Of a DNA stretch of 64,000 bases, positions 2,186-36,683 are shown in pieces. Numbering within the stretch: position 1 is the stretch's first letter; each line of letters opens with the position of its first letter. Origin of the DNA: Ectothiorhodospira haloalkaliphila ATCC 51935. Lineage in GTDB: Bacteria > Pseudomonadota > Gammaproteobacteria > Ectothiorhodospirales > Ectothiorhodospiraceae. The position numbers and the translations under genes were made by a program. The notes under the pieces were generated by a model that saw only the letters and a list, made by a program, of their open reading frames with translations, was not told the origin of the DNA and ran no database searches. The DNA is taken from assembly GCF_000633935.1 (NCBI RefSeq), contig NZ_KK214998.1:681844-745843 (forward strand), written 5' to 3'.

Positions 2186-3634
2186 TCAGATCATGAAACG
2201 GTCCATGAACTCATGTACTGGCGTGTTGTTCAGGCGATTCGCATCGGTGCACAAGGCCAGGATCTCCTGGGCCTGCCCCTTGGGGAAACGCCCACGCAGG
2301 GCGTTCTCGAACTTGCGTTCCAGTTCCGGAAGGCCCTCGTCGCGGCGGCGCCGGTGGCCGATGGGGTATTCCACCTCCACCTTGTCGGTGTGACTGCCGT
2401 CCTTGAAGAACACCTGCACTGCGTTGGCGATGGAGCGTTTTTCCGGGTCGTGGTATTCACGGGAATAGCGCTCATCCTCCACCACATGCATCTTTTCGCG
2501 CAGTACATCGATGCGTGGGTCAGCGGCCACGTCGTCCTCGTAGTGACGGGCGGTCAGCTCCCCGAAGATCAGGGGTATGGCCACCATGTACTGCAGGCAG
2601 TGATCCCGATCGGCCGGATTGTACAGGGGGCCTTGTTTGCTGATGATGCGGATGGCCGAGTCCTGGGTGGTGAGTTCCACCCGGTCGATCTCGTCCAGGC
2701 GATCTTTCACCTCATCGTGCAGCGCCAGGGCGGCCTCCACTGCCGTCTGGGCGTGGAACTCGGCCGGGAAGCTGATCTTGAACAGGATCTGCTCCATCAC
2801 GTAGCTGCCATAGGGCCGCTGGAACCGGAAGGGCTGACCCTTGAAGAGGACGTCATAAAAGCCCCAGCGCGGCGCACTGAGCACGCTGGGCAGGCCCATC
2901 TCGCCCTTCATGACCATCATGGCCAGGCGTACGGCGCGACCACAGGCATCGCCTGCAGCCCAGGACTTGCGTGAGCCGGCATTGGGGGCATGGCGATAGG
3001 TGCGCAGGGCTTGTCCGTCCACAAAGGCCTGTGAGACGGCGTCGATCACCTGATCGTGCCGGGCGCCGAGCAGATGGGCGCTGACGGCAGCAGAGGCCAC
3101 CTTCACCAGCACCACGTGGTCCAGCCCCACCTGGTTGAAGCTGTTCTCCAGGGCCAGCACGCCCTGGATCTCGTGGGCCTTGACCATGGCCTGGAGTACC
3201 TGGCTCACGGTGAGGGGAGGGTGGCCGTTGGCCACGGCCTGTCGGCTCAGGTGATCGGCCACGGCGAGGATGGCCCCCAGGTTATCCGAGGGATGTCCCC
3301 ACTCGGCCGCCAGCCAGGTGTCGTTGAAGTCCAGCCAGCGCACCATGGCGCCGACGTTGAAGGCCCCCTGGATGGGGTCCAGCTGGAACGAGGTGCCAGG
3401 GATGCGGGTGCCGTTGGGCACGATGGTGCCGGGGACAACGGGCCCCAGGTGTTTGGTGCATTCGGGATATTGCAGGGCCAGCAGGGCGCAGGCCAGGGAG
3501 TCCATGAGGCAGTGGCGTGCGGTGTCCAGGGCCTCAGGGGAGGTGATGGGGTCGCCGCAGACGTAATCGGCGATGGCGACGAGTTCCGGATCGGGTTCGG
3601 GGCGAAGGTTGGTGTCGGCGGTGCTCGCGGTCAT
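2186..3634 (-). CDS. prpD: 2-methylcitrate dehydratase PrpD
   Basis: Dehydrates 2-methylcitrate to 2-methyl-cis-aconitate in the cytoplasmic methylcitrate cycle. The protein is 482 residues, the normal MmgE/PrpD length, with the family blocks [19 protein letters not shown] near the N terminus, [33 protein letters not shown]-like sequence and the C-terminal [13 protein letters not shown]. Start chosen at ATG with GGGGG 9 nt upstream. It lies 132 nt after prpC, the gap being filled by a palindromic repeat. No acnD or prpF is present, so this is the PrpD rather than the AcnD/PrpF version of the pathway. Confidence 0.95.
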
Positions 3635-3676: not shown

Positions 3677-3760
3677 CCCTCACCCCGACCCCTCTCCCCA
3701 AGGGGAGAGGGGCTTCAGTGTCCCTTCTCCCCTCTGGGGAGAAGGGCCGGGGATGAGGGG
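3677..3760. repeat. C-rich palindromic element, full copy (prpC-prpD gap)
   Basis: Two adjacent imperfect palindromes. The first is built on CCCTCACCCC then CTCTCCCC/GGGGAGAG, the second on CCCTTCTCCCC/GGGGAGAAGGG ending in GGGGATGAGGGG. The outer ends are imperfect inverted repeats of each other. Related copies lie at 6701, 32973, 33110, 33660, 33723, 48010 and 61209. Here it separates prpC from prpD inside one operon. Confidence 0.8.
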
Positions 3761-3766
3761 AGAGCA

Positions 3767-4918
3767 TCAACCCCGCTGGTTCATCGGCGCCCAGGCCCGG
3801 TTTTCCGGGCCGATGTAGTTGGCGCTGGGACGGATGATCTTGCCGTCCTGGCGCTGCTCGATCACGTGGGCCGCCCAGCCGGCGGTGCGGGCGATCACGA
3901 AGATCGGGGTGAACAGCGGTGTGGGGATCCCCATCATGTTGTAGGAGACCGCAGAGAACCAGTCCAGGTTCGGGAACATCTTCTTGGCATCCCACATGAC
4001 CGTTTCCAGACGCTCGGCCACTTCGTACATGCGCATGTCACCCTGCTGCTCCGACAGACGGCGGGCCACTTCCTTGATCACCTTGTTACGCGGATCGGAG
4101 ATGGTGTACACGGGATGACCAAAGCCGATCACGATTTCCTTGCGGGCCATGCGCTCACGGATGTCTGCCTCGGCCTCATCCGCATCATGATAACGCTGCT
4201 GGATGTCGCAGGCCGCCTCGTTGGCGCCGCCATGCTTGGGACCACGGAGGGCACCGATGGCGCCGGTCAGGGCCGAGTAGATATCGGAGTTGGTGCCGGC
4301 GACCACGCGGGAGGTGAAGGTGGAGGCGTTGAACTCGTGCTCGGCGTACAGGTTCAGGGAGGTGTGCATTGCCCGCACCCACTCCTCGGGGGGCTTGCGA
4401 CCATGCATCAGGTGCAGGAAGTGGCCGCCCATGCTGTCATCGTCCGTTTCCACGTCAATGCGACGGCCGTGGTGGGCGAAATGGTACCAGTACAGCAGCG
4501 CCGAACTCAGGCAAGCCAGCAGGCGGTCGGCAATCAAACGGGCGCCGGCCACGTTCATGTCTTCCTTTTCCAGCTCCAGGGTGCCCAGCATGGACACGGC
4601 GGTGCGCATCACATCCATGGGGTGGGCTGAGGGCGGGATCTGCTCCAGGGTGATGCGCAGCGCGGCGGGCAGGCCGCGCATGGAGCGCAGCAGGGCCTTG
4701 TAGCGCTCAAGCTCGGCGCGGTTGGGCAGGGTGCCGTGGACCAGCAGGTAGGCAATCTCCTCGAATTCCGCCTCATCGGCGAAATCCAGGATGTCATAAC
4801 CACGGTAGTGCAGGTCGTTGCCGGTGCGGCCCACGGTACAGATGGCGGTATTGCCCGCGACCGTGCCCGACAGGGCAACGGACTTCTTCGGCTTGGGCTT
4901 GTTCTCGGTTTCACTCAT
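3767..4918 (-). CDS. prpC: 2-methylcitrate synthase PrpC
   Basis: Condenses propionyl-CoA with oxaloacetate to 2-methylcitrate. The 383-residue citrate-synthase-fold protein has [18 protein letters not shown] near the N terminus, [10 protein letters not shown], the histidine-bearing [11 protein letters not shown] and [13 protein letters not shown] blocks, and a late [13 protein letters not shown]. The frame is open upstream, but the start is placed at MSETENK because GGAGAA precedes it and the extension reads back into prpB without family similarity. It starts 19 nt after the prpB stop, so the two are cotranscribed. Confidence 0.95.
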
Positions 4919-30557: not shown

Positions 30558-30761
30558 TGGTGTCACTCCCCTTAAGGTTCTTCCTGAAACGAACCGGCGC
30601 GCGCACGCCGATCCATGAAAGCGGTCGAATGCCGCGGGGCAGCCCGGCGCCCGCTCCGAACGAACGCGATCCCCCTTGAAAGTATAGTGGGTTGACAGCA
30701 AGACGCTGCCAACGCGGTGTGGAGCGTCTATCCTTGGCAAAGCCTGCCCATTCATTTCGTG

Positions 30762-31544
30762 ATGGCGACCATGACCGTGAATTCCCCCGCACAGCCCCAT
30801 GTGGCCCTGTATGCCACGTGCCTGATGGACCTGTATCGCCCCAATGTGGGGTTCTCTGCCATCCAGTTACTGGAGTCGGCGGGCTGTCGGGTGAGTGTGC
30901 CGCGAGGCCAGACCTGCTGCGGACAGCCGGCCTACAACAGCGGTGATCGCGCCACCGCCCGGGCGTTGGCGCTGCGGGTGTTGAAGGAATTTGAGGGTTT
31001 TGACTACGTGGTGCTGCCCTCGGGCACCTGCGGCGCCATGATAGGTGCGTATCCTGAGCTGCTTTCCGATGACCCCGAGTTGCAGGTCCGGGCTCGGGAC
31101 CTGGCGGACCGGACCTTTGAGCTGACGTCCTTTCTGGTGGATGTGATGGGGGTGACAGCGGTGAGTGCGCGTCTGGATGGTGTGGCCACCTATCACGATT
31201 CCTGCTCCGGGCTTCGCGAACTGGGGGTGCGGGATCAGCCGCGCCGCCTGCTGTCCACGGTGCAGGGCCTGGAGCTGAACGAGATGACCGACGCCCAGGT
31301 CTGCTGTGGGTTCGGGGGCCTGTTCAGCGTGAAATATCCTGAGATCTCCGGACGCATGGTGGCCGACAAGGGTCGGCGGGTGAGCGAGAGCGGTGCCCGG
31401 TTCCTGTTGGGCGGTGACCTGGGATGCCTGTTGAATATTGCCGGGCGGCTGCGCCATGAGGGCAGCCCGGTCCGGGTCTTTCATGTGGCGGAGGTGCTGG
31501 CCGGACGGGCAGATGGGCAGGCCATCGGGGAGGGCAGGGCATGA
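30762..31544 (+). CDS. lutA: LutA/YkgE-type Fe-S subunit of lactate utilisation
   Basis: 260-residue (Fe-S)-binding subunit of the LutABC (LldEFG) L-lactate oxidation complex. Two cysteine-rich CCG units are visible: GQTCCGQPAYNSG near residue 48 and CCGFGGLFSVKYPEIS near 185, plus HDSCSGLRELG. The start is uncertain: ATG 30762 (MATMTVN) or 30771, neither with a good ribosome site. It overlaps the next gene by four bases (ATGA), so the two are translationally coupled. Substrate lactate versus other 2-hydroxyacids is inferred from the family. Confidence 0.9.
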   Translation: MATMTVNSPAQPHVALYATCLMDLYRPNVGFSAIQLLESAGCRVSVPRGQTCCGQPAYNSGDRATARALALRVLKEFEGFDYVVLPSGTCGAMIGAYPELLSDDPELQVRARDLADRTFELTSFLVDVMGVTAVSARLDGVATYHDSCSGLRELGVRDQPRRLLSTVQGLELNEMTDAQVCCGFGGLFSVKYPEISGRMVADKGRRVSESGARFLLGGDLGCLLNIAGRLRHEGSPVRVFHVAEVLAGRADGQAIGEGRA

Positions 31545-33643
31545 ACACGTCCACGACAGATTTCAAGGCCCGGGTCCGGGTGGCACTGAACGATCGACAT
31601 CTGGAGCAGGCACTGGGCCGCGCGCGAGACGGCTTCGTGCTCAAGCGCCGCAAGGCGGTGGATGCCCGTCCTGACTTCGAGGCCCTGCGCGACCAGGGGG
31701 TGGCCATCCGGGACCACACCCTGGATCACCTGGAAGATTACCTGGATCAGTTCATTCAGGCCTTCGAGGCCCAGGGTGGTCAGGTGCATCGGGCCGCCGA
31801 CGCCGAGGAGGCTCGGCGCATTGTCCTGGATATCTGCGCGCAGGCGGGTGCCCGGCGCGTGACCAAGGGCAAGTCCATGGTGGCCGAGGAGGTGGGGCTC
31901 AACGAGGCCCTGGATGATGCCGGCTACGATCGGGTGGAGACCGACCTGGGTGAGTACATCATCCAGCTGGCCCATGAGACCCCCAGCCACATCATTGCGC
32001 CTGCGGTCCACAAGACCCGCGAGCAGATCACCGAACTCTTCCACGAACACCACCGGAAACTGGGTTTTGCCGAGCGGGTGACCAGTATCCCGGGCCTGGT
32101 GAACGAGGCCCGCAGTGTGCTGCGTGAGCGCTTCCTCACCGCCGATGTGGGCATCACCGGTGCCAACTTCCTGGTGGCCGAGAACGGCGCCAGTGTGATT
32201 GTCACCAACGAGGGCAACGGGGATCTGACCGCCACGTTGCCCCGGGTGCATGTTTCCGTGACGGGTATCGAAAGGGTAGTGCCCACGCTGGAGGACATGA
32301 CAAACCTGCTGCGCCTGCTGGGCCGCAGTGCCACGGGACAGGTGATGACGAGCTACACCACCCTGTCCACCGGCCCACGCCGCGCCGATGACACGGATGG
32401 CCCGCTGGCCCATCACGTGGTGCTGGTGGACAACGGCCGCTCCGGGATGCTGGCAGATCCGCGTTACCGGGCCATGCTGCGCTGCATTCGTTGCGGGGCC
32501 TGTCTGAATCACTGTCCCGTGTATGGCGCCATCGGCGGTCATGCCTATGGATGGGTGTACCCCGGGCCCATGGGTTCGGTGCTCACCCCCCTGACCCGCG
32601 GCCTGGGCAGTGCCCAGGATCTCCCCCAGGCCTGCACGCTGAATGGTCATTGTGCCGAGGTGTGCCCGGTGAAGATTCCGTTGCCGGAACTGCTTCGGGG
32701 GCTGAGGGAGTATCAATTCGAGCAGCGGGTGATCGGTCGACGGCCCCGCTGGGCAGTGTGGCTATGGGGTCAGGTGGCCAGGCGGCCGGGGTTGTACCGC
32801 CCGGTGGCGCGATGGTCGGCGCGGACCCTGGGCTGGCTGGGGAGGGGGCAGGGTGTGCTCCAGCGTTTGCCCATGGCGTCCGGGTGGTTCAAGGGCGGGA
32901 GATATCTGCCGGTACCGGAGGGGCGCAGTTTTCTGGAGATGTTGGGCGGAGGAGATACCGTGCCCTCCACACCCCTCACCCCAACCCCTCTCCCCGGGGG
33001 GGAGAGGGGCTCTGGATCTGAGGCTGAGGGCTCCACCCATGATCTCCCTTCTCCTCTCGGGGGAGAAGGGTCGGGGATGAGGGGCACGGGGAGCACAGTG
33101 CCTGAGTTTCCCCGCACCCCAACCTCTCTCCCGGGAGGGGAGAGAGACTTTGAAAGTGCGCTGGAGCAGGCCGCCGGCACCGTTGAATGGCTGGATCAGC
33201 CAGATGACATTCCCCGACAACTTGCCCGCGTCATGCAGCAACAGGGCCTTGATGGGCCGGTCGTCGTGGCCCCGGCGCTGGCTCACCTGGACTGGGCTGG
33301 CGCCGGACTGGCCCCCCGCTTCGGCCCCGCCCTGGGCGATGAAACCGTCGGCCTGAGTCAGGCGGTCTGTGGCGTGGCCGAGACGGGTACCCTGGTCCTT
33401 GCTTCAGGTGCAGATGACCCCACCACCATCAACTTCCTGCCTGAATACCACTTCGTGGTGCTGGCGTCAGCGAACGTGGTGGACCGCCTGGAGGATGCCT
33501 GGATGCGACTCCGGGAGCGGGATAAGCCCTGGCCACGAACCGTCAATCTCATCACCGGCCCCTCGCGCACCGCCGACGTTGAGCAGACCATCCAGCTCGG
33601 CGCCCACGGCCCCCGCAGCCTGAAGGTGTTCATGCTCAGCTAA
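31541..33643 (+). CDS. LutB-LutC fusion with a repeat-encoded linker
   Basis: A single 700-residue frame. Residues 1-470 are LutB-like: LUD domain (KGKSMVAEEVGLNEAL, GANFLVAENGASVIVTNEGN), then a ferredoxin region with CIRCGACLNHCP near 315 and CTLNGHCAEVCPVKIPLP near 370. In the second cluster an Asn stands where CxxC usually has Cys. Residues about 540-700 are LutC-like (LSQAVCGVAETGTLVLAS, FLPEYHFVVL, ITGPSRTADVEQTIQLGAHG). Between them, about residues 478-536 are translated from C-rich palindromic repeats. LutB and LutC are usually separate proteins. An internal ATG at 33077 could start a short LutC. Confidence 0.82.
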   Translation: MNTSTTDFKARVRVALNDRHLEQALGRARDGFVLKRRKAVDARPDFEALRDQGVAIRDHTLDHLEDYLDQFIQAFEAQGGQVHRAADAEEARRIVLDICAQAGARRVTKGKSMVAEEVGLNEALDDAGYDRVETDLGEYIIQLAHETPSHIIAPAVHKTREQITELFHEHHRKLGFAERVTSIPGLVNEARSVLRERFLTADVGITGANFLVAENGASVIVTNEGNGDLTATLPRVHVSVTGIERVVPTLEDMTNLLRLLGRSATGQVMTSYTTLSTGPRRADDTDGPLAHHVVLVDNGRSGMLADPRYRAMLRCIRCGACLNHCPVYGAIGGHAYGWVYPGPMGSVLTPLTRGLGSAQDLPQACTLNGHCAEVCPVKIPLPELLRGLREYQFEQRVIGRRPRWAVWLWGQVARRPGLYRPVARWSARTLGWLGRGQGVLQRLPMASGWFKGGRYLPVPEGRSFLEMLGGGDTVPSTPLTPTPLPGGERGSGSEAEGSTHDLPSPLGGEGSGMRGTGSTVPEFPRTPTSLPGGERDFESALEQAAGTVEWLDQPDDIPRQLARVMQQQGLDGPVVVAPALAHLDWAGAGLAPRFGPALGDETVGLSQAVCGVAETGTLVLASGADDPTTINFLPEYHFVVLASANVVDRLEDAWMRLRERDKPWPRTVNLITGPSRTADVEQTIQLGAHGPRSLKVFMLS
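32973..33148. repeat. C-rich palindromic element inside the lutBC frame
   Basis: A full copy of the element at 3677 spans 32973-33084 (left palindrome, right palindrome, ending GGGGATGAGGGG). A half copy follows at 33110-33148 (CACCCCAACCTCTCTCCC / GGGAGGGGAGAGAG). All of it is read in frame, giving Pro/Gly/Ser-rich segments such as TPTPLPGGERG, SPLGGEGSGMRG and TPTSLPGGERD. Confidence 0.85.
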
Positions 33644-33659
33644 GGGTTCAGCTACAGAC

Positions 33660-33760
33660 ACTCCCTCCTCCCCCACGGGTGGGAAGGGCTAGGGATGCGA
33701 TAGGCACTGTAACGGCCATCGCCCCTCACCCCAACCCCTCTCCCCCGTGGGGAGAGGGGC
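33660..33760. repeat. C-rich palindromic elements, degenerate half plus half copy
   Basis: A decayed right half (CCCTCCTCCCCCACGGGTGG then GAAGGGCTAGGGATG) is followed by a good left half at 33723-33760. They fill the gap between the convergent lutBC and P-type ATPase genes and could act as a two-way terminator. Confidence 0.7.
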
Positions 33761-33813
33761 TCGTGACGTATCTTTCTTCGTCTGGGGTGCATTACCACCT
33801 GGGTGCATGAGAG

Positions 33814-36555
33814 TTAGTCAGTGTTCACCCAGGGCAGCCGCCGCAACACCGTCTTCTCCAGTTCCACGATCACGAACACCACCAGACCAAACAGCAGGAT
33901 GCGGGCCCAGTCTTCCCAGCCGATGGCCGTGGTGCCGAACAGGGTGTTCATCACCGGGGCATAGGTGAAAGCCAGTTGCAACAGCACCAGGATGCCGATG
34001 GCCAGCCACATGGCGCGGGACTGGAAGATCGCCCAACCGCGCAGCACCGGCTGATAGATCAGGCGCAGATTCAGCAGGTAGAAGGCCTGACCGGCCACCA
34101 GGGTGTTGATGGCCACGGTGCGCGCCAGTTCCTCGGAACTGCCCACCACCTCCTGCATCCACACGAAATGCCCAAAGGTGCCCAGCCACAGGAGCACCGC
34201 CACGAAAGGGATGCGCCAGAGCAGAAAGCCCGATAGCAACGGGGCATTGGGGTTGCGCGGTGGTCGCTTCATCACCCCCGGCTCACTGGGCTCGAAGGCG
34301 AGGGCCATGGCCAGCGTCACCGAGGTGACCATGTTCACCCACAGCACCTGCACCGGGGTGAGGGGCAAGGCCAGGCCCATGAGGATGGCCATCATGATGG
34401 TCATGGACTGCCCGGCATTGGTGGGCAGCATGTGCAGGATGGCCTTGCGGATGTTGTCGTACACCGTGCGACCTTCCTCCACCGCATGGGCGATGGAGGC
34501 GAAGTTGTCATCGGCCAGCACCATCTCCGAGGCCTCCTTGGCCGCCTCGGTGCCCTTGTGGCCCATGGCCACGCCCACATCGGCGCGCTTCAGGGCAGGG
34601 GCGTCGTTGACGCCATCCCCCGTCATGGCCACGATGCTGCCGCCGTGCTGCAGGGCCTGCACCAGTCGCAGCTTGTGCTCGGGGGTGGTGCGGGCGAACA
34701 CGTCTGTCGTGCGGGCCGTCTCCCTGAGTTGTTCAGGGGTCATGTGATCAAGTTCGTGGCCGGCGATGGCGGTGGCCTTGTCCTTGCCGCCGATCCCCAG
34801 CAACCCGCCCACGGCCTGGGCCGTGATGAGATGATCGCCAGTGATCATCTTCACCCGGATGCCCGCCTCCAGGGATTGACCCACCGCCCGGATGGCTTCC
34901 TCCCGGGGCGGGTCGATGATGCCCAGGATGGCCAGCAGGGAAAATCCGCCGGCCTCCACCTGGCTGTAATTGAGGTCGTTCTGGTGCGGTCGGGCATCTC
35001 TCGCCGCCACGGCGAGCAGGCGCTCACCCCGGGCGGCCACTTCTTCCATGGCCTGCTCCCACCAGGCCCGCTCCAGTGGGCGTGCCCCATCGCGGGTCTG
35101 CTCATGCTCACACAACTCCAGCACGCGCTCCGGCGCACCCTTGAGGTAGATCACGCCCTGCCCGTCGTGATCTCGATGCAGGGTGGCCATGTACTTGTGA
35201 TCCGACTCGAAGGGGATTACATCCACCCGGGGCATCTGTCCCTGTTCGGTCTGCGGGTCCATGCCGGCCTTGCGGGCCAGAACCACCAGGGAGCCCTCCG
35301 TGGGGTCCCCCTCCATCACCCAGTGACCTTCCTTTTCGAATACCTGGGCATCGTTGCAGAGCAGGCCCACCCTCAGGGCCTGGGCCAGCACCGGGTCGTC
35401 ATCGGGATTGATGTCCTGGTCGTCCTCGGAAAACCCGCCCTGGGGCGCGTAGCCCACGCCATCCACCTCCACATGGCGTTCACGGCTGCGCAGTGAGGAG
35501 ACGGTCATCTCGTTGCGGGTGAGGGTGCCGGTCTTGTCGGAACAGATGGTGGACACCGAGCCCAGGGTCTCCACCGCCGGCAGGCGCCGGATGATGGCAT
35601 TGCGTCGGGCCATCTTCTGCACACCGATGGCCAGGGCGATGGTCAGGATGGCCGGCAGACCCTCGGGGATGGTGGAGACCGCCAGGCTGGCGGCGGCGAG
35701 GAACATCTCGTCCAGGGGGTAGCTGCGAACCCAGTAACCAAAGGCAAAGGTGGCTGCTGCGACCACGATGATGACACCCGCCAGCCAACGCCCGAACTGC
35801 TCCATCTGCCGTACCAGCGGCGTTTGCAGGCTGTCCACCTCGCCCAGCATGGTGGAGATGCGGCCCACCTCCGTGGTCTGCCCGGTGGCCACCACCAGGC
35901 CCCGCCCGCGACCAAAGGTGACCAGGGTGCCGGAGTAGGCCATGCAGAGGCGATCGCCCAGGGGGGCATCCTTCTCAACGGGTGGCACCGCCTTCTCCAC
36001 CGGTACCGACTCTCCGGTGAGCACGGCCTCGTCGATGCGCAGGTTCTTGGCATTCAGCAATCGCAGGTCCGCCGGCACCTTGTCGCCCGCCTGCAAATAG
36101 ACCACATCCCCGGGCACCAGGCTGCTGGCCTCCACCTCGCGGCGATGACCATCCCGCAGCACCAGGGCCCGGGGTGAGAGCATCTTGCGGATGGCGTCCA
36201 GAGCCTTTTCGGCCTTTCCCTCCTGCACGAAGCCAATCAGTGTATTGATCAGCACCACTGCCAGAATCACCCCGGTGTCCACCCAGTGGCCCAGCAGGGC
36301 GGTGCCCAGGGCAGCCACCATCAGGATATAGATCAGGATGTTGTGGAAGTGGCGGAAGAACCGAATCAACGGGCCGGCTTTTTCCGGCGGGCGCAGTTCG
36401 TTGGGGCCATATTGCTCCAGACGCTGTTCCGCCGCCTGTGCGGTCAAGCCATCGGCATGGGACTCCCAATGCCGGACCACCTTGTCGGGATCCTGGGCGT
36501 GCCAGGCCGGGCTCTCGTGGGTGTCATCTTCATTCTGCGGGGTGTTGGAATCCAT
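33814..36555 (-). CDS. P2-type cation-transporting ATPase
   Basis: 913-residue P-type ATPase of the inner membrane. Domain order is N-terminal cation ATPase domain (about 20-85), A domain with LTGESVPVEKA, phosphorylation motif DKTGTLT near residue 340, nucleotide domain with KGAPERVLEL, and TGDGVNDAPALK. M4 has PEGLPA. M6 reads LWVNMVTSVTLAMALAFEP, lacking the Asp of the VTDG motif in SERCA, so a classical two-site calcium pump is doubtful and ion specificity is open. Start at MDSNTPQ is 9 nt after GGAG. It is divergent from the DUF6394 and potassium channel genes. Confidence 0.9.
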   Translation of the reverse strand: MDSNTPQNEDDTHESPAWHAQDPDKVVRHWESHADGLTAQAAEQRLEQYGPNELRPPEKAGPLIRFFRHFHNILIYILMVAALGTALLGHWVDTGVILAVVLINTLIGFVQEGKAEKALDAIRKMLSPRALVLRDGHRREVEASSLVPGDVVYLQAGDKVPADLRLLNAKNLRIDEAVLTGESVPVEKAVPPVEKDAPLGDRLCMAYSGTLVTFGRGRGLVVATGQTTEVGRISTMLGEVDSLQTPLVRQMEQFGRWLAGVIIVVAAATFAFGYWVRSYPLDEMFLAAASLAVSTIPEGLPAILTIALAIGVQKMARRNAIIRRLPAVETLGSVSTICSDKTGTLTRNEMTVSSLRSRERHVEVDGVGYAPQGGFSEDDQDINPDDDPVLAQALRVGLLCNDAQVFEKEGHWVMEGDPTEGSLVVLARKAGMDPQTEQGQMPRVDVIPFESDHKYMATLHRDHDGQGVIYLKGAPERVLELCEHEQTRDGARPLERAWWEQAMEEVAARGERLLAVAARDARPHQNDLNYSQVEAGGFSLLAILGIIDPPREEAIRAVGQSLEAGIRVKMITGDHLITAQAVGGLLGIGGKDKATAIAGHELDHMTPEQLRETARTTDVFARTTPEHKLRLVQALQHGGSIVAMTGDGVNDAPALKRADVGVAMGHKGTEAAKEASEMVLADDNFASIAHAVEEGRTVYDNIRKAILHMLPTNAGQSMTIMMAILMGLALPLTPVQVLWVNMVTSVTLAMALAFEPSEPGVMKRPPRNPNAPLLSGFLLWRIPFVAVLLWLGTFGHFVWMQEVVGSSEELARTVAINTLVAGQAFYLLNLRLIYQPVLRGWAIFQSRAMWLAIGILVLLQLAFTYAPVMNTLFGTTAIGWEDWARILLFGLVVFVIVELEKTVLRRLPWVNTD

Positions 36556-36683
36556 CGGTACCGCTCCAATCTTCAAATATCCGGCAAGTGGTGATCATGC
36601 CCCTGGCATGTCGCATCTGCCGCTTGATCCCTTCAAGATTAACACCGAACATAGGGGCTCAAACCATCCCAAGGGACGCCCCG

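Follow-up and report, generated by a model that had tools for sequence, protein, structure and literature searches.

A lutB-lutC fusion joined by a palindromic repeat

The window, a stretch of 64,000 nt from Ectothiorhodospira haloalkaliphila (genome G000), contains genes resembling those for the lactate oxidation proteins LutABC/LldEFG. As in those systems, a lutA-like gene lies upstream and the domains of LutB and LutC are conserved, but here LutB and LutC are joined, with a palindromic repeat between them, and the N-terminal helices of LutC are gone. The lutA-like gene (30717-31544, forward strand, as for all features of the locus) encodes a CCG cysteine-rich domain (PF02754, E 4.4e-28, on 30780-31544). 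Its start codon is uncertain, and its stop codon overlaps the start of lutB (ATGA). From this point a single open frame (31541-33643) runs through 700 codons without a stop and encodes LutB, a linker and LutC in series, an architecture repeated in the congeners G007 and G009.

The LutB part (31541-32944, residues 1-468) comprises a LUD domain and a 4Fe-4S dicluster domain (TIGR00273, PF02589, PF13183). Its match to TIGR00273 (LutB/LldF) extends over residues 17-426 and profile positions 2-406 of 432, scores 442.2 bits, just below the cut-off of 444.8, and leaves the C-terminal end of the profile unmatched. The linker (32945-33148, residues 469-536) has 204 nt, compared with 141 nt in G007 and 225 nt in G009. 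The LutC core (33149-33643, residues 537-700) was delimited by alignment, motif and structure models. The fused protein contains two LUD-domain stretches; the LUD domain with the GPSRTADVEQTIQLGAHGP core is present in the LutC part, according to an alignment with 27 hand-picked separate LutCs that was also used for structure modelling, and residues 575-698 match LutC of Deinococcus (2G40) by sequence (E 4e-6). A separate extra copy of LutC in G000 was ruled out, since at E <= 0.001 no match was found apart from the fusion, whose other three matches fall in the repeat peptide.

Positions 32972-33148 consist of three C-rich palindromic hairpin units in the order A+ B- A+, which encode residues 478-536. 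An earlier note on this DNA had correctly placed a C-rich repeat in frame between LutB and LutC and put its coding capacity at about 59 residues, the number found here, but had taken the element for one full and one half copy instead of an A-B-A arrangement of three hairpins. The A unit is the 22-mer CCCTCACCCCAACCCCTCTCCC, and the B unit is close to CCCTCATCCCCGACCCTTCTCCC. With up to three mismatches, the 22-mer occurs seven times in the window, twice within lutBC (at 32973 and 33111), versus 0 occurrences in 100 dinucleotide shuffles. The first A unit (32972-33010) encodes the peptide PLTPTPLPGGERG, the inverted B unit (33044-33085) the peptide LPSPLGGEGSGMRG, and the second A unit (33110-33148) the peptide PRTPTSLPGGERD. 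The RNA from 32950 to 33170 is predicted to fold at -126.7 kcal/mol, more stably than shuffled sequences (z -4.2), and such hairpins might influence translation, as the earlier note supposed. No Rfam family reached its gathering score anywhere in the window.

The linker peptide is rich in Pro, Gly and Ser. In a model of linker and LutC (30 alignment rows), the first 77 residues of the modelled piece (up to residue 530 of the protein) had no secondary structure and predicted local distance difference test (pLDDT) scores that for the most part stayed under 50. The LutC core that follows mostly scored over 90 and fell to 66-74 in places.

Fused and separate lut genes in related bacteria

LutB and LutC share one stop-free frame in 4 of 58 genomes: G000, G007 and G009, which belong to the same genus (congeners are numbered G001-G009) and carry the repeat, and G031, which belongs to another genus and lacks it. 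The repeat fusion is full-length and stop-free in G000, G007 (93%) and G009 (86%). Both domains were read at 18 loci, the window's among them; four were single-frame and 14 separate. Of 80 named loci from outside this set, which include Thioalkalivibrio sp. and Methylonatrum kenyense (63%, best segment), 74 had separate genes, none was fused, and six (L071, L081, L085, L086, L090 and L095) had no LutC match downstream of LutB. The congener G006 has separate lutB and lutC genes and no copy of the repeat pattern. The earlier note had proposed to look in relatives for separate genes with the repeat between them; the genes are indeed separate in G006, at the 14 loci read and at all 74 classifiable outside loci, but G006 has no repeat. 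The three fused species probably share one event in their common ancestor.

The fusion in G031 (L004, 2854-3003) is of a different kind. Where lutB and lutC overlap, its run of Gs is one G longer than that of G023, and the frame may be a sequencing error; a true fusion or a programmed frameshift are the alternatives.

Coding sequence replaced by the repeat

In G006, G015 and G023 the stop of lutB overlaps with the start of lutC, which was set at the onset of the conserved N-terminus. There was thus no spacer, and it was coding sequence of both genes that the repeat replaced, contrary to the insertion between two adjacent genes envisaged in the earlier note. It occupies the place of about 5 lutB codons and about 50 lutC codons.

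The lost part of LutC is a helical N-terminal segment (R..IL..IR..LGR) that is missing from the three repeat fusions and present in G031. A strict motif (R..[ILMVF][LFM]..[ILVMA][RA]) was found at the N-terminus of 67 of 79 separate LutCs, the other 12 being looser by eye, and in 0 of 3 repeat fusions, in agreement with the loss suspected earlier (one of the 80 references, L077, was dropped because of unknown residues). A profile of the LutC N-terminal region scored 71.9 bits for G031 and 15-19 bits for the three repeat fusions. In a structure model of the separate G015 LutC (27 rows, mean pLDDT 88), helices 3-16 and 23-36 precede the core, and both are missing from the fusion. A fold search with this G015 model, not with the fusion's, matched 2G40 and chain B of the LutA-LutB model 9a6l. 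According to a crosslinking study of B. subtilis, as far as its available text goes, the N-terminal region of LutC packs on the alpha2 helix of LutB in the predicted LutA-LutB-LutC complex (PMC10090944).

LutB was compared with 50 other LutBs (49 of the 80 separate LutB references, and G031). Fourteen of 202 conserved columns were changed in all three fused species, and 6 of these 14 lie within residues 45-84, a hint of clustering.

Evolution of the linker

The A-B-A arrangement is found in G000 and G009. G009 has 21 nt more, and G007, which is nearer to G000, lacks the last A unit because of a 63-nt in-frame gap. The edges of this gap, GAGGGGC and GAGAGAC, suggest that it arose by slippage. 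Across the three species the ratio of nonsynonymous to synonymous substitution rates (dN/dS) was 0.09-0.11 for LutB, 0.15-0.18 for LutC and 0.49-0.75 for the linker. Judged by these ratios, LutB and LutC are under purifying selection, and the linker is weakly so.

Within the linker, variation is uneven. The cores of the first A unit and the B unit vary at 6 of 81 nt in the three species (1 of 39 in the A unit, in the loop, and 5 of 42 in the B unit), and the 33-nt spacer that separates them has 11 variable positions. The proportion of synonymous differences (pS) in the hairpin cores was 0.08-0.17, versus 0.17-0.46 in LutB and LutC. Fisher tests gave p values of 0.09, 0.05 and 0.005 for three non-independent pairs, one of them significant, and equally slow or slower 27-codon windows were found elsewhere in 16, 32 and 0 of 578 cases, so that slow synonymous change of the hairpin cores is no more than hinted at. 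In the third hairpin, one stem position is changed on both sides between G009 and G000 (C-G, T-A), and two pairs of G009 are broken in G000.

Candidate starts within the fused frame

A GTG codon at residue 474 (32960-32962) follows a Shine-Dalgarno (SD)-like stretch (32942-32962) directly 5' of the repeat. Its predicted pairing with the anti-SD sequence amounts to -9.5, -9.3 and -11.3 kcal/mol in G000, G007 and G009, and is matched or surpassed by only 1 of 57, 2 of 58 and 0 of 63 other in-frame ATG, GTG or TTG codons, respectively. The surroundings of this codon vary faster than all other parts compared, yet the SD-like stretch and the GTG are kept in the three species. On sequence grounds, GTG474 is possibly a relic of the lutC start, and also a candidate internal start. 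The B unit contains an in-frame ATG (residue 513) after a GGAGAAGG-like stretch, with a pairing energy of -8.4 kcal/mol in all three species and upstream bases that are the same save one in G007. G009 also has an ATG at residue 538 (-9.8 kcal/mol). For comparison, the start of lutB reaches -11.5 kcal/mol, and the lutC starts of G006, G015 and G023 reach -3.3, -7.4 and -8.4 kcal/mol. GTG439 inside LutB scores -9.4 to -11.8 kcal/mol, indicating that such values occur where no start is expected.

The repeat family and its in-frame copies

Sixteen genomes were scanned for the A unit with up to two mismatches. Copies were found in G000 (88), G009 (137), G007 (43), G005 (32), G003 (18), G002 (17) and G004 (6), and none in the congeners G001, G006 and G008 or in six genomes from other genera of the family. 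With up to one mismatch, the unit was present in 21 of 274 genomes sampled from the class, with 123 copies in G200. A control with the reversed pattern was uninformative because the pattern is almost its own mirror image (67 matches in G000; at one mismatch, 0 in G000 and 39 in G200). Of the 88 A units in G000, 80-85 are free of stops in any one of the three forward frames.

In 55 stretches of G000 and the window we counted 86 elements: 58 single A units, 12 A+B- pairs, 9 B-A+ pairs, 2 A+B-A+ elements and 5 others. The inverted pairs, a REPIN-like arrangement of two units, make up 21 of the 86. Apart from lutBC, the A+B-A+ order occurs at L159 1316-1480 (G000:C4:109515-109679), in an element 74% identical to the lutBC copy over 180 nt, which is possibly the same compound element located outside a gene. 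A subfamily of about 199 bp has ends like TTAACGTGAAAG..GCATGAGAGTTAA, with a short inverted TTAACG..CGTTAA, around a B-A core. Full-length copies with TTAAC..GTTAA-like ends are present at L141, L143, L163 and L177 in G000 and in an ATPase gene of G009 described below; the lutBC copy has no such ends. A duplication of TTAA at the ends of this form is possible.

We also inspected candidate mobilizing genes. Y1_Tnp (PF01797) had 58 matches, distributed over all 16 genomes searched. None of the surroundings fetched, 26 of the 58, contained a REP-associated tyrosine transposase (RAYT) gene flanked by the C-rich family; strict copies were present in two stretches (L133 and L134), more than 1 kb from the gene. 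A RAYT-like gene of G000 (L131, G000:C4:265500-269500, at 1300-2800) sits among arrayed copies of another repeat, GTGGGAGCGGGCCTTGCCCGCGAA. A GTAG or CGTC end tetranucleotide was not seen on the units read by eye, which was not a scan of every copy.

Among the 86 elements of G000, lutBC was the only gene-internal copy recognized, in line with the earlier description of the element as intergenic elsewhere. The placement, mostly between genes, is a judgement from 26 ORF translations read out of 65 ORF-by-unit rows, which cover the window, the G000 stretches and nine stretches from other genomes and of which only two non-lut ORFs had a family search. A codon-score filter was insensitive and at lutBC flagged only the antisense strand. 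There may be further in-frame copies in G000.

A second clear case comes from G009, where a heavy-metal P-type ATPase (HMA, E1-E2 ATPase and HAD domains) contains a 195-nt in-frame copy of the approximately 199-bp form between GLGVEGW and GKRVRLGSP (L194, G009:C40, about 2969-3168, minus strand; also L203). Its orthologues in G000 and G007 have an empty site, with 92% identity before and 89-90% after it. A calcineurin-like phosphoesterase of G000 (L169, G000:C4:1009700-1012200, at 368-1351) extends at its C-terminus in frame into a C-rich unit (ALTPTPLPQAGEG). In-frame use of the family is real and looks rare. We also note two tandem A units right at the N-terminal end of an ORF of G000 and G009 that resembles an ADP-ribosylglycohydrolase by appearance (L168 11424-12681, and L133 near 3700-3800).

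Proposed origin and function of the fusion

We propose that the 3' end of lutB and roughly the first 50 lutC codons gave way to an A+ B- A+ copy of the palindromic repeat, so that one open frame remained; this probably took place in an ancestor shared by the three species. Ribosomes finishing LutB would then continue into LutC and make a one-chain LutBC. The disordered Pro/Gly/Ser-rich repeat peptide would serve as a flexible tether, making the lost N-terminal docking segment of LutC dispensable. A separate LutC might be made in addition from an internal start. A covalent tether in place of the docking segment is the mechanism we favour because the LutC N-terminus packs on LutB in the B. subtilis model. 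The fused frame is well supported, and the function of the tether is inferred. Altogether we consider this reading probable. The repeat itself was most likely tolerated rather than selected as a linker sequence, because its forward frames are mostly free of stops and the site is a domain boundary.

In a more far-reaching version, a selfish repeat would have turned a two-subunit enzyme into a single chain, with the tether standing in for docking of the LutC helices on LutB alpha2. The LutB surface would have drifted afterwards, and the DNA of the hairpin cores would have been nearly frozen by homogenization with the genomic copies or by selection like theirs. We regard this version as unlikely.

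Several points weigh against the proposal of a tethered single chain. The chain is predicted from the reading frame. That the linker frame is open says little: when the observed linker substitutions were placed at random, 79-83% of the outcomes also remained stop-free, and we dropped it as a strong argument. Docking by the LutC N-terminus has been predicted in print for another phylum, and the place of alpha2 would carry over to the fused LutB by analogy. The clustering of changes in LutB residues 45-84 has a hypergeometric p of 0.0006 that rises to 0.025 after adjustment for background, for a region chosen post hoc in one lineage. Since the three fused species probably go back to one event, they may have kept the fusion simply by descent. 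Finally, GTG474 is among the three strongest candidate starts in the frame of each fused species, and as far as its SD-like starts can tell, LutC may largely be made on its own. These strong SD-like starts lower our confidence slightly.

The most serious rival holds that the repeat is selfish DNA, a neutral and tolerated insertion that by chance did not close the frame, that the fused protein functions in spite of it, and that the linker has no role. The linker ratios are closer to neutral than those of either domain, the third unit was lost in G007 with the frame kept, and the similar in-frame insert in the G009 heavy-metal ATPase is missing from two orthologues. In Rickettsia, insertions of palindromic elements have been interpreted in this way, at least in the text available to us (PMC2229807). 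A neutral insertion leaves unexplained why LutC lost a segment that separate LutCs keep while its core remained under purifying selection. Even with this reservation, we give this explanation a considerable chance, somewhat short of even. Translation of LutC as a separate protein, from GTG474 with the repeat as its new N-terminus or from ATG513, appears somewhat unlikely to us. The pairing energies speak for it, including that of ATG538 in G009, and GTG474 is rarely matched in its frame. However, the surroundings of GTG474 evolve fastest, GA-rich stretches are common, as GTG439 illustrates, and the bases 5' of ATG513 form the 3' arm of a hairpin. Moreover, in none of the three species does a stop close the LutB frame, so that ribosomes are expected to continue into LutC whether or not an internal start is active.

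It is also conceivable that the genes were fused before the repeat arrived, by loss of the lutB stop, and that the repeat entered the fused gene later. The repeat-free LutB-LutC frame of G031 would fit this order of events, but G031 differs from G023 by a single G that may be an error, and no repeat-free fusion was found among the four genomes of the window's genus that have lut genes; we think this order quite unlikely. C-rich hairpins are error-prone in sequencing, and a sequencing error or frameshift had been named in the earlier note as the finding that would undo it. The assemblies of three species agree, however, one of them in a single contig, and their linkers differ in length by multiples of three. 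An artefact of assembly or sequencing is therefore barely conceivable.

Gene fusion turns multi-subunit enzymes into single chains, and the joining step is rarely caught. In lutBC the joint is a recognizable mobile-type repeat, and the unfused state and three fused variants are all available, which makes the idea of a tether in place of docking directly testable. A repeat family that lies mostly between genes can evidently supply protein linkers, and the heavy-metal ATPase insertion in the same genus points the same way.

Relation to known in-frame repeats

Palindromic repeats within coding sequences have precedents, which we compare here by the parts of the published descriptions available to us. 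Rickettsia palindromic elements (RPEs) are mobile repeats that lie in frame in coding genes and add peptide to conserved proteins, and the product of an RPE-bearing gmk is active (PMC10969869, PMC2229807). The likeness to lutBC is one of description, between different bacteria, and RPEs decorate single genes, whereas the lutBC repeat joins two subunits and replaces ends of both. Intragenic repetitive extragenic palindromic (REP) units of the GTAG/CGTC type also lie in frame inside ORFs, as dimers and clusters (20-30 residues, clusters 43-82), one of them in uvrA of Thioalkalivibrio (PMC3733652). The lutBC units were read without a GTAG or CGTC end tag, and the section of that survey on intragenic REPs describes no fusion of two genes.

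The opposed hairpin units (A+B- and B-A+) and the dozens of copies per genome recall REPINs and RAYT-mobilized REPs, with the difference that the RAYT surroundings inspected were not flanked by the C-rich family and the RAYT-like gene of G000 belongs with another repeat family. The subfamily of about 199 bp, with its TTAACG..CGTTAA ends and one in-frame coding insertion, resembles bacterial miniature inverted-repeat transposable elements (MITEs) known from in-frame fusions (ERIC, YPAL, Correia); the lutBC copy differs in having no MITE ends. In the available part of a paper on the LUD domain, the words 'fusion' and 'fused' do not occur (PMC3924224). Among the matches listed in a search of titles and beginnings of abstracts in the open literature, a scope that leaves most subscription papers outside, we found no paper in which two neighbouring genes are fused through a palindromic repeat that serves as linker. 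In-frame palindromic repeats are known, and a repeat that joins two neighbouring subunit genes with loss of an interface segment is a new variant.

Neighbouring features

Directly 3' of lutBC lies an intergenic relative of the MITE-like form (33645-33816, forward strand), which is 75% identical over 181 nt to the insert in the G009 ATPase. It faces a convergent ORF (33814-36576) that encodes a cation P-type ATPase, judged by appearance. At the level of the assembly, contigs C1 and C3 of G000 are of near-equal size (386,956 and 386,950) yet have different repeat positions, an oddity of this assembly.

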